NCBI RefSeq assembly: GCF_014196295.1
Contig: NZ_JACIDK010000005.1
Location: forward strand, 62,001-126,000
Reading direction: 5' to 3'
DNA length: 64,000 bases
Origin: Phenylobacterium haematophilum
GTDB lineage: Bacteria; Pseudomonadota; Alphaproteobacteria; Caulobacterales; Caulobacteraceae
Positions 15,210 to 57,732 of this stretch are shown here, in pieces (position 1 is the stretch's first letter; each line of letters opens with the position of its first letter). Both the position numbers and the translations under genes were made by a program. The notes beneath the pieces were generated by a model. The model saw nothing but the letters and a program-made list of their open reading frames with translations. It had not been told where the DNA came from and searched no databases.

Positions 15210-15329
15210 TGCGTAGAGCGTGCCCCAATTTCCGGCCGCCGACAAATGCTCAGTGGGCGGCGGTCGTTGCGCGGCTGACACGCCCCCCGCCAATCTAAAA
15301 CAACCGTAATGTTGCGCCACGGAAAGACC

Positions 15330-54987: not shown

Positions 54988-55368
54988 GTGAATCTGCTGG
55001 TCGCCAAGCGGGCCTTAGGCCTGTTCTCGCTCGCCGTCGGCGTGGCCGCGGTCACCGCGCCGCGCCAGGTCACGCGGTTCCTCGGGCTCAAGTTCGACGA
55101 TCAGGCGATGAGCGCCTTCGGCGCGCGCGAGATCGCCTCCGGCGCGGGCCTGCTTTCGCCGGTGCCGCCTGGGCCGTGGTTCTGGATGCGCGCCGGCGGC
55201 GACCTAATGGATCTGGCGGCGCTTGGCCGCGCCATCGGCCGCGACAATCCCCGGCGCAAGGTGGCCTATGTGGCCTTCGGCGCGGTTGCGGCCGTCGCCG
55301 TGGTCGATATCGCCATCGCCATCCACGCCGCCCGCAATCGCCGCGACGACAACGAGGCGGCGGCTTAG
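54988..55368 (+). CDS. Small membrane protein, unknown
   Basis: 126 residues from a GTG start at 54988 (RBS GGAGG). Hydrophobic segments include LLVAKRALGLFSLAVGVAAV (about 3-22), 'FGAREIASGAGLLSPVPPGP' and 'FGAVAAVAVVDIAIAIHAAR' (about 95-114), with 'WFWMRAGGDLMDLAALGRAI' between. The last helix is followed by RRDDNEAAA. The pattern resembles small alphaproteobacterial inner-membrane proteins of unknown function. Follows the PhnD-like gene by 47 bases and may be co-transcribed with it. Confidence 0.75.
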   Translation: MNLLVAKRALGLFSLAVGVAAVTAPRQVTRFLGLKFDDQAMSAFGAREIASGAGLLSPVPPGPWFWMRAGGDLMDLAALGRAIGRDNPRRKVAYVAFGAVAAVAVVDIAIAIHAARNRRDDNEAAA

Positions 55369-55784
55369 CCCCCGCTCAGCAGGAAGTGTCCGCGCAGGGC
55401 GGCGGCGGGCTTGTCGCGCGCCTCCTGCCAGGCCTCGACGTGCACGTTGGCGATCTGCCGGCCGACCTTCCTCACGTCGGCGCGGGCGTACATGGTCATC
55501 GCCTTGCCGGGCCGCAGGTACTCGATGGTGATGTCGATGGTCTTGTGGACCTTGGCGCTGGGCGCGATCACCGACAGCTGGGCCAGAGCGGTCATTTCCA
55601 TGAACGCCCCGATCACCCCGCCGTGCAGGGCCGGCAGCGCCATGTTGCCGATCAGGTGCGGCGCGAACGGCAGGATGGCGGTCATCTCGTCGCCGGCCAG
55701 TTCGGCGCGCATGCCGAGGAACCGGACATATGGCACCCGACCGAGGAACAGTTCGAGGCGTTGAACGGCGGCCGGCTGGGTCAT
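55365..55784 (-). CDS. PaaI-family hot-dog thioesterase (1)
   Basis: 139 residues, cytoplasmic. Hot-dog fold with ALHGGVIGAFMEMTALAQLS, the PaaI/DUF4442-type HGG motif, and 'KVHKTIDITIEYLRPGKAMT' then 'MYARADVRKVGRQIANVHVE'. It hydrolyses acyl- or aryl-CoA thioesters. Its ATG overlaps the next gene's stop by 4 bases, so the two thioesterases form a coupled pair. Confidence 0.92.
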   Translation of the reverse strand: MTQPAAVQRLELFLGRVPYVRFLGMRAELAGDEMTAILPFAPHLIGNMALPALHGGVIGAFMEMTALAQLSVIAPSAKVHKTIDITIEYLRPGKAMTMYARADVRKVGRQIANVHVEAWQEARDKPAAALRGHFLLSGG

Positions 55785-56224
55785 GGCGCGGCCCGCTTCA
55801 GAACAAATGCGGCCTGGGCCGTCGCGATCGGGTCTTCCGGATCGGCGTCGAAGGCGTGGGCGCGCACGAAGGCGATGTTGCGGGTCAGCTTGTAGCAGTG
55901 GGCGCTGGCGGTCACGTCGGCGCGCGGCGCCGCCGGGCGCATATAGTCGATGCGCAGGTCCAGGGTCGCCGTGGACAGGAAGCCGCCTTCGAGCGATCGC
56001 GAGGTCACGGCCAGGCCGCAGACATGATCGAGGAGCGCGGTGATCACCCCGCCCGCGATGACGCCGGTGTCGGGATCGCCGACCAGCTCTTCTCGCCAGG
56101 GGGTGAAGATGGAGCCTCGCGAGGGCTCTACGGAAATCAGCTTGAAGCCGAGGGCGGAGGCCTGCGGCACGGTCTCAACCATGTGCCGGGCCGCATCGCG
56201 AAGGGCCTCCGGGGTAATCGTCAT
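55781..56224 (-). CDS. PaaI-family hot-dog thioesterase (2)
   Basis: 147 residues, the upstream member of the pair (start 56224). 'GDPDTGVIAGGVITALLDHV' gives the A-G-G variant in place of HGG, followed by 'TLDLRIDYMRPAAPRADVTA' and 'ITPEALRDAARHMVETVPQA' at the N-terminus. It may form a hetero-oligomer with the downstream paralogue. No phenylacetate genes are nearby, so the substrate is open. Confidence 0.92.
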   Translation of the reverse strand: MTITPEALRDAARHMVETVPQASALGFKLISVEPSRGSIFTPWREELVGDPDTGVIAGGVITALLDHVCGLAVTSRSLEGGFLSTATLDLRIDYMRPAAPRADVTASAHCYKLTRNIAFVRAHAFDADPEDPIATAQAAFVLKRAAP

Positions 56225-56263
56225 CCCCGTTCTTTGAGGCGCCTCCGCCTATCGGTCAACGTG

Positions 56264-56290
56264 AGGGCAGGTCAAGTTCATACCTGCCCT
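56264..56290 (-). terminator. Hairpin directly after the 35-residue gene
   Basis: AGGGCAGGT (56264-56272) and ACCTGCCCT (56282-56290) form a perfect 9-bp stem with a 9-base loop. On the minus strand it begins inside the stop codon of the 35-residue gene. No strong T tract follows, so it could be a factor-assisted terminator or an mRNA-protecting hairpin. Confidence 0.65.
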
Positions 56291-56397
56291 TAAGCGACGC
56301 CGGCGGCCTTGGTCAGGATCGCGACGGCGATGGCCATCAGCGGGGTGGCGGCGAGAGCGAGGTTGGCGAAGCCGTTGAAAGCGTAGGAGTTGCGCAT
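56290..56397 (-). CDS. 35-residue membrane microprotein
   Basis: MRNSYAFNGFANLALAATPL then a hydrophobic helix MAIAVAILTKAAGVA. It starts at ATG 56397 with AGAGGGAC as a good ribosome-binding site and stops at TAA 56292-56290, which leads straight into a perfect hairpin. The alternation of hydrophobic residues (LALAATPLMAIAVAIL) predicts one membrane-spanning helix with short polar ends. No family recognised. It is short enough to escape ordinary gene finding; the RBS, terminator and isolated position all support it. Confidence 0.7.
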   Translation of the reverse strand: MRNSYAFNGFANLALAATPLMAIAVAILTKAAGVA

Positions 56398-56551
56398 GGT
56401 CTTGTCCCTCTGGTCTGGTATGGTTCGCGATGTCCGCGTCCCGATGAGAGAGGTATACGCAACGACTTTTCCGAATACTCGTTAAGTCTTGGTCATGACG
56501 CCGATTTCACAATATGAATACTGTGTAATGTTCCGCGGATCGCCAATACGC

Positions 56552-56692
56552 GTCATCCCGGAAAGCGTGAGGCGCTTGTCCGGGACCCATTGCCGCCGCG
56601 GTCCGGGGCTAGAGGCGCAGGCCGCGCAACATCCTGCACGATCAGGTGTTCATGGGTCCCGGTCTTCGGCCGGAGGCCGAAACCGGGATGAC
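56552..56692. repeat. REP/BIME-like palindromic repeat, copy 3
   Basis: Bounded by GTCATCCCGG (56552-56561) and CCGGGATGAC (56683-56692), 141 bases, the longest copy. The left unit is CCCGGAAAGCGTGAGGCGCT...TGTCCGGGACCCAT, the right unit ATGGGTCCCGGTCTTCGG...CCGAAACCGGG, so two inverted units flank a unique centre. It fills much of the 327-base gap 56398-56724; the rest (56398-56551) is AT-richer and presumably carries the microprotein promoter. No other gene is seen in this gap. Confidence 0.85.
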
Positions 56693-56724
56693 ACCTTGAG
56701 ATCGCCTTACCCATATCCCCTGGC

Positions 56725-57732
56725 ATGATCCGGCCCGAAGCTCTGCTGTGTCCCAAGCCCGAGGGGCTGTACTGCGCGCCCGGCGACTTCTTCGTCGATC
56801 CGGTGGCGCCGGTGGCGCGCGCGGTGATCACCCACGGCCACGCCGACCACGCCCGCGCCGGCCACGGCACGGTCATCGCCACGCCGCAGACCCTGGCGAT
56901 CATGGCCGAGCGCTACGGCGCCGATTTCGCCGGCTCGGTCCAGCCGCTGGCCTACGGCGAAAGCGTCGCCCGCGACGGGGTCGACGTGACCCTGGTCCCG
57001 GCCGGCCACGTGCTGGGCTCGGCCCAGGCCGTCGTCGCGTGGAAGGGCCTGACCATGGTGGTGTCCGGCGACTACAAGCGCCGCCGCGACCCGACCTGCC
57101 CGCCCTTCGAGCCGGTGCCCTGCGACGTGTTCATCTCCGAGGCCACCTTCGGCCTGCCGGTGTTCCGCCATCCGGACGACGCCCACGAGATCGCCAAGCT
57201 GCTGCGCTCTGTGCAGCAGTTCCCGGAACGCGCCCACATGGTCGGCGCCTATGCGCTTGGGAAAGCCCAGCGCATCATTCGCCTACTGCGCGAGGCCGGC
57301 TGGGAGCGAACCATCTACGTCCACGGCGCGCTCGACCGCCTGAACCATCTCTATGAGAAGCACGGCGTGCCGCTCGGCCCGTTGGCCCCAGCCACCTCGG
57401 ACGTGAAGCAAGACTTCGCCGGCCAGATCATCATCGCCCCGCCCGGCGCCCTGGCCGACCGATGGTCGCGCCGGTTCCCCGATCCGGTCACGGCCTTCGC
57501 CTCGGGCTGGATGCAGGTGCGCGCCCGCGCCCGTCAGCGCGGGGTCGAGCTGCCGCTGGTGATCTCCGACCACGCCGACTGGGACGAACTGACCGCCACC
57601 GTCGACGAGTTGCGCCCCGGGGAGCTGTGGATCACCCACGGCCGCGAAGAGGCGCTGATGCGTTGGGCCGATCTGCACGGGATCAAGGCCCGGGCCCTGG
57701 CCCTGGTCGGCTACGAGGACGAGACCGAGTGA
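56725..57732 (+). CDS. Ligase-associated DNA exonuclease (metallo-beta-lactamase fold)
   Basis: 335 residues. The MBL motif is ITHGHADHARAG (HxHxDH, about residues 36-41). Later metal ligands are in 'LVPAGHVLGSAQAVV', GDYKRRRDPT and 'LVISDHADWDEL'. The beta-CASP-like C-terminal region includes 'MVGAYALGKAQRIIRLLREA'. This matches the 'ligase-associated DNA exonuclease' family found next to ATP-dependent ligase genes in bacteria; here the ligase is about 1 kb downstream, with DUF4349 between. Probable role: DNA end processing. Confidence 0.92.
   Translation: MIRPEALLCPKPEGLYCAPGDFFVDPVAPVARAVITHGHADHARAGHGTVIATPQTLAIMAERYGADFAGSVQPLAYGESVARDGVDVTLVPAGHVLGSAQAVVAWKGLTMVVSGDYKRRRDPTCPPFEPVPCDVFISEATFGLPVFRHPDDAHEIAKLLRSVQQFPERAHMVGAYALGKAQRIIRLLREAGWERTIYVHGALDRLNHLYEKHGVPLGPLAPATSDVKQDFAGQIIIAPPGALADRWSRRFPDPVTAFASGWMQVRARARQRGVELPLVISDHADWDELTATVDELRPGELWITHGREEALMRWADLHGIKARALALVGYEDETE

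Follow-up and report, generated by a model that had tools for sequence, protein, structure and literature searches.

The DNA analysed here, which we call the window, is a stretch of 64,000 nucleotides from a contig of Phenylobacterium haematophilum (NZ_JACIDK010000005.1). On its reverse strand, at positions 56290..56397, lies a microprotein gene that runs from ATG to TAA and encodes 35 amino acids (MRNSYAFNGFANLALAATPLMAIAVAILTKAAGVA), with Pro19 in the middle of its predicted helix; homologs, selection and helix prediction are the evidence for this gene. A ribosome-binding site, AGAGGGAC, read from the sequence, occupies 56404..56411 on the same strand and stands 6 nt before the ATG, so that the ORF and the well-spaced site named in a preliminary description of this DNA are both present. 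The best 19-residue hydropathy mean of the protein is 2.10, and AlphaFold2 models it as a single helix spanning residues 3-32 (mean pLDDT 83.7, pTM 0.43). The two agree with one predicted membrane helix, as had been proposed.

Searches with the window's microprotein gave no Pfam or NCBIfam match. NCBIfam returned zero families at E≤1 for the microproteins of the window and of locus L076, and a Pfam scan of 20 microproteins at E≤5 returned three families with one member each (best E 0.094), none of which was AcrZ. A PDB sequence search with the microprotein yielded two chance-level rows only (E 1.3 and 6.8), and Rfam had no match to 56200-56730 up to an E-value of 1.

Two thioesterase-like ORFs, named by eye, lie downstream on the same strand, thioesterase 1 at 55365-55784 and thioesterase 2 at 55781-56224. 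A GC-rich palindromic repeat, GTCATCCCGG ... CCGGGATGAC, fills 56551-56692 between the microprotein promoter and an exonuclease-like gene and looks like a dispersed REP-type element. The microprotein gene had been described as lying alone between the thioesterase pair and the repeat; the placement is exact, but the gene is not simply isolated, as it has a conserved promoter that is common to urcA genes. Most of the fetched loci from the window's genus share one layout, with the exonuclease-like gene divergent and the microprotein, thioesterase 2 and thioesterase 1 following on one strand. In most fetched loci from a second genus (g28, see below), the microprotein gene comes after the thioesterase pair on the same strand. 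At one of these, L165, the next gene after the microprotein is convergent, and therefore the microprotein seems to be the sole ORF of its transcript there. We also observed that several relatives (L003-L005) have an almost unchanged copy of the segment before thioesterase 2 (56228-56263, around CGTTGACCGATAGGCGGAGGCGCCTCAAA), which may be a promoter of its own.

Behind the stop codon is a perfect 9-bp inverted repeat with a 9-nt loop (56264-56272 / 56282-56290, reverse strand), which overlaps the stop codon by a single base, the codon's last. It folds by itself, with a z of -3.27. The mean z after the stop codon was -0.78 in the window's genus (31 unique stretches, 10 of them below -1.5) and 0.26 in the second genus (39 unique stretches, one below -1.5). 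The corresponding values for a control region farther downstream, from somewhat mixed groups, were -0.86 and -0.32. The groups used at first, both here and for the upstream models described below, had been split by length and start, and the group labelled 'pheno' held some second-genus loci; both tests were repeated with clean genus groups. Near relatives L003 and L040 have a different fold after the stop codon, and L038 has a weaker version of the hairpin. A stop codon running into a perfect 9-bp hairpin, as reported earlier, is thus present in the sequence but unconserved in relatives. A role as terminator was rejected, as there is no T-run, a terminator scan did not list the hairpin and the structure is not conserved. 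Local to the window's lineage, the hairpin is no conserved part of the locus.

Distribution of the microprotein and selection on its frame

A profile built from reference sequences only matched 104 of 390 Caulobacteraceae genomes at E≤1e-4. The matches fell in two of 22 genera, Phenylobacterium (g1, the window's genus) and g28, which is most likely Caulobacter. At least three of the 104 genomes rest on UrcA-like frames. Four rows (G013, G410, G008 and the second of G391) belong to longer frames (123-141 residues) and probably represent UrcA signal peptides, and for this reason we put the number of genomes with a microprotein at about 100. Within g28, a separate profile search matched 66 of 75 genomes at E≤0.01. 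With only the 35 residues as query, 24 of 80 genomes returned rows at E≤1, and the weaker rows are noise; an earlier profile gave 105 of the 390 family genomes at E≤0.1, many chance rows among them. Six genomes (G309, G311, G314, G327, G330 and G394) each have two microprotein-like rows at E≤1e-4. In seven Phenylobacterium genomes the profile found no match; there the thioesterase-like and exonuclease-like genes stand side by side and the upstream element is absent as well. The microprotein gene is therefore dispensable.

For comparative work we collected 131 loci, each required to match a loose version of the upstream element and a core pattern that contains proline, and to have a frame open for 28-45 codons; the element, the proline and the open frame are consequently present in this set by construction. 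Six of 58 profile loci that were checked (L059, L153, L163 and L177-L179) are missing from it. Microproteins in the collected set are 31-42 residues long. In the relatives found with the protein profile, frame and start codon are preserved, length is similar and the core residues recur; substitutions are conservative, in line with the earlier proposal of a genuine small membrane protein. Relatives with a broken frame or unconserved residues had been named beforehand as what would speak against that proposal, and the relatives found by profile have neither. The frame and its residues recur across other species, and the ORF is a conserved gene and more than a chance frame.

Selection was measured in three groups of equal-length sequences (12, 9 and 29 unique sequences), for which the pooled dN/dS was 0.59, 0.51 and 0.48, respectively. 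In each group the coding frame had the lowest pN/pS among the six frames (0.65, 0.54 and 0.55), with the next-lowest frames at 0.72, 0.74 and 0.73. When alignment columns were shuffled, the observed substitution score was reached in 0 of 300 shuffles in each of the three groups, and the observed share of silent changes in 0, 12 and 0 of 300. The window and its near relative L038 differ by three nonsynonymous and no synonymous changes. All 64 unique proteins have the mid-helix proline, which the collecting pattern required, and their best 19-residue hydropathy ranges from 2.03 to 2.67. Similarly, the proline is invariant in the 26 of 26 rows of the references-only alignment (A5), whose rows were drawn from the collected loci. 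Purifying selection on the frame is real but moderate.

A putative promoter with UzcR-like sites

The sequence before the gene had been noted as richer in AT, and it is: the GC content of the window is 68.9%, that of 56398-56540 is 49.0% and that of 56450-56540 is 42.9%. Judged by its elements, this AT-rich leader region is a conserved, predicted promoter. All of the elements lie on the reverse strand. The untranslated leader (56398..56451) contains TCATCGGGACGCGG, its start being set by the predicted -10 element TATACC at 56452..56457, which is spaced 24 nt from a TTAA. The TTAA belongs to a proximal UzcR-like (m_5) site, CATGACCAAGACTTAA, at 56482..56497, with one mismatch to CATTAC-N6-TTAA. 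This site is part of a palindromic element, TGAAATCGGCGTCATGACCAAGACTTAA (56482..56509), in which two inverted UzcR-like sites share GTCATGAC. A distal UzcR-like site, CATTACACAGTATTCA, also with one mismatch, lies 33 bp upstream of the proximal one at 56515..56530. With up to one mismatch, 0.09 copies of CATTAC-N6-TTAA would be expected in the window and three occur, two of them just upstream of the ORF. The third, CATTACGGTTGTTTTA, lies at 15296-15311 on the reverse strand and has one mismatch.

According to the available excerpt of the review PMC8963506, UzcR is the response regulator of a two-component system of Caulobacter crescentus that responds to uranium, zinc and copper, and its site, CATTAC-N6-TTAA, is found 43 or 53 bp before the transcription start. 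The same excerpt gives urcA as the most uranium-specific induced gene of C. crescentus, dependent on UzcR, with two nearly identical UzcR motifs in its promoter (PMC8963506).

Nearly every homolog examined has a conserved element in the DNA some 100 nt upstream of its ATG; that of the second-genus locus L165 reads CATGAAGCAAGAGTAA. To count sites, loci were chosen by the protein profile alone, and two loci with matches at other places (L052 and L181) were omitted, which left 29 loci per genus. In the 190 nt upstream, 24 of 29 loci of the window's genus and 18 of 29 of the second genus have a site with up to one mismatch, against 0.07 and 0.15 after base shuffling. With up to two mismatches the counts were 28 and 29 of 29, against 1.33 and 1.98 after shuffling. 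The full sets of 30 loci gave 25 and 18 (one mismatch) and 29 and 30 (two mismatches), and a downstream control stretch of these full sets had a UzcR-like site in 0 of 60. Sites in the second genus are often two mismatches from the consensus, and one profile match, L059, has no site within two mismatches upstream.

The 24-nt spacing between TTAA and a TATA-type -10 element, taken as the best hexamer within a 14-nt range, was found in 73 of 75 unique upstream regions of the collected loci; the exceptions, L097 and L098, have a poor hexamer at 22. With the transcription start set from the -10 element, this spacing would put the centre of the proximal site at about -44. The 4.4-Mb genome has two perfect copies of the palindrome T(T/G)AA-N6-GTCATKAC-N6-TTAA, one at this locus and the other upstream of a urcA gene, and a reversed control of the pattern had no match in the genome up to two mismatches. 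Because the pattern was written after both places were known, it is its rarity that counts and not its discovery. A third match with one mismatch (C14:27261) was dropped, as it appears from the lengths of its flanks to lie inside a coding frame. Additionally, urcA genes are preceded by TCATCGG or TCAACGG leaders in the same place as the leader of the microprotein. ChvI was considered as a regulator and set aside, since its TTGC-N3-GCAA motif, as given in the accessible part of PMC9731502, does not fit. The genome of the window has 16 matches to OmpR-type regulators, none above the TIGR01387 cut-off.

Resemblance to urcA genes

The urcA genes encode periplasmic proteins whose function is unsolved. 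The microprotein profile also matches the N-termini of longer frames, and most of these are UrcA-like. Among 20 long-frame matches picked by hand from the search of 390 genomes, 15 were UrcA-like by eye, and 6 of these were scanned with the family model. In g28, 17 of 18 matches in frames of at least 100 residues were UrcA, 10 by the family model and 7 by eye, a count that omits the microprotein row of G348. Fifteen of these 18 were fetched and 3 coincide with family-model matches; 14 of the fetched frames were UrcA-like (7 scanned, all positive) and one, L250, was not. The TIGR04433 cut-off was passed by 13 of 13 UrcA-like proteins scanned.

We then have 25 UrcA loci identified by the family model, of which 12 have the full element upstream and 13 do not. 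The 12 element-bearing proteins have signal peptides with a microprotein-like, Pro-containing core (by eye); the other urcA gene of the window's own genome, L132, is among the 13 without the full element. Upstream DNA models of 115 nt plus the ATG were made from the microprotein genes of the window's genus alone (32 unique sequences) and of g28 alone (41 unique sequences) and searched with nhmmer. The first model matched 12 of the 25 UrcA loci at E≤1e-3 (best 4.2e-12), the second matched the same 12 (best 2.8e-15), and neither matched any of 20 control loci at E≤1. The genes matched number 11, because two of the loci, L236 and L240, overlap and share one strong match. The urcA gene of the window's genome that has the exact palindrome (L133) was missed by the first model and was partially matched by the second (E 0.078). 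A model from the earlier, mixed groups had its best E of 7e-18 at L254, which is UrcA by eye, whereas the 4.2e-12 above refers to clean groups and family-model UrcA only. L020, which was matched among 21 earlier controls, was left out of the final set; it is the same place as L078 and is UrcA-like by eye.

The resemblance ends with the N-terminus. The mature UrcA domain (TIGR04433, >25 bits) is absent from the microproteins of the window and of L076. The UrcA-type cleavage motif A[HQNLA]A[AEGD], written after the UrcA sequences were known, was found in 32 of 34 UrcA proteins that had been chosen for their Pro core and in a single one of the 64 microproteins. Over the ten residues after the proline, hydropathy is 2.41 in the microproteins and 1.32 in UrcA. 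About half of the UrcA loci examined are like the microprotein locus in having a promoter with inverted CATKA(C/A)-N6-(T/G)TAA sites, the leader and an N-terminal hydrophobic segment of the LALAATP kind, and the microprotein is unlike UrcA in lacking the mature domain and the signal-peptidase motif and in its more hydrophobic tail. By sequence comparison, the predicted promoter, the leader and the signal-peptide-like N-terminus are common to the microprotein gene and a subset of urcA genes.

Possible origin and role of the microprotein

The simplest account of these likenesses would be a truncated urcA paralog whose signal peptide now serves as a membrane anchor. We consider it probable that the gene has this origin, is induced by UzcR and encodes a small single-pass protein of the inner membrane. 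The microprotein gene would descend from urcA genes or share an ancestor with them, having kept a urcA-type promoter, leader and signal-peptide-like N-terminus and lost the mature domain and the signal-peptidase motif. The missing cleavage motif and the more hydrophobic tail suggest that what was once a signal peptide probably remains in the membrane, where its orientation would be N-in/C-out. UzcR or a close relative would most likely activate the gene under zinc, copper, uranium or envelope stress, through predicted binding to the pair of inverted sites, whose centre would lie some 44 bp upstream of the transcription start. The locus resembles members of the UzcR (m_5) regulon of C. crescentus in having a site within one or two mismatches, and it may do so in the predicted position of that site, about -44. 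Common descent, UzcR binding, induction and membrane location are all things that we infer. Signal peptides can look alike without common descent, and convergence is accordingly an alternative to urcA ancestry.

A urcA gene cut after its signal peptide could also be a decaying remnant, kept by chance and on its way out, a reading with which the moderate constraint, the absence of the gene from some Phenylobacterium genomes and the end of the urcA resemblance at the signal peptide, with nothing beyond, would agree. We consider it improbable given that the short form is found in about 100 genomes across two genera, that the conservative substitutions were reached in 0 of 300 shuffles in all three groups, and that the cleavage motif is missing from all but one of the 64 proteins, whose tail is on average more hydrophobic; broken copies fall outside the 131-locus set because an open frame of 28-45 codons was required. 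Those last protein features also bear on a secreted peptide, in which the product would be exported and cut and a short piece would be active. The near-absence of the (post hoc) cleavage motif from the microproteins (1 of 64, compared with 32 of 34 UrcA proteins) and the more hydrophobic residues after the proline make this quite improbable, even with the resemblance to signal peptides and the AGVA at the C-terminus of the window's protein. Very unlikely, in our view, is that the short ORF is merely a leader peptide, or its upstream region a promoter, for the thioesterase genes. The window and relatives with the same layout do have the microprotein, thioesterase 2 and thioesterase 1 in a same-strand row, with a 65-nt gap after the microprotein gene in the window. 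In most fetched g28 loci, however, the ORF and the same promoter come after the thioesterases, and at L165, where a convergent gene follows, the ORF seems to be alone on its transcript. That the promoter accompanies the ORF rather than the thioesterases argues against a leader peptide, and residues are conserved, not position alone.

The identity of the regulator is a separate matter. The gene may be real and the element may bind another OmpR-type response regulator that answers to a different signal, as the sites are one or two bases off the consensus and the genome has 16 OmpR-type matches. We regard this as possible but unlikely, since the element is shared with promoters of urcA genes, the family to which a UzcR-dependent gene of C. 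crescentus belongs, and the predicted position and the spacing fit the published -43, the dependence and the -43 both being as reported in the excerpt of PMC8963506.

We return to the reading of a UzcR-induced membrane protein derived from urcA. Stress-induced small single-pass membrane proteins include AcrZ, MgrB and CydX, and the AcrZ helix contains a proline. The microprotein is like these in size, in its one predicted helix and in its putatively regulated promoter, and like AcrZ it has a proline in the helix; it is unlike them in having no notable Pfam or PDB sequence match. Kinship with AcrZ was rejected, the likeness being one of general features, with no AcrZ match in the Pfam scan. By analogy, and only tentatively, the microprotein might work as such proteins do and bind and tune a membrane partner, the first candidates being the UzcS kinase or a UzcR-controlled efflux pump. 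These partners are named because UzcR targets include TonB-dependent receptors, the acrAB-nodT pump and the sRNA gene chvR (PMC12864828, in the portion available) and because small proteins are known to tune sensor kinases (PMC12501420, likewise in part, where MgrB is treated among small proteins). More speculatively still, the signal peptide of a metal-induced secreted protein could, once its gene had been truncated, have become a free-standing inner-membrane regulator that reports on, or feeds back to, the UzcRS envelope-stress system, although we hold this to be rather doubtful.

No description of this gene was found among the matches listed in the literature on UrcA, UzcR/UzcRS and Caulobacter small membrane proteins, and an earlier description is possible. 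The locus adds a conserved microprotein with a predicted inducer to a well-studied model group. It may also be a case of how a small membrane protein arises, by a secreted protein being cut back to its signal peptide with the promoter kept, and it may help with the unsolved function of urcA.

A minor observation concerns the arrangement of urcA genes themselves. In genome G288 two urcA genes stand in tandem (L236/L240); the upstream model finds the shared element before the first (E 4.3e-12) and matches only weakly before the second (E 0.066).
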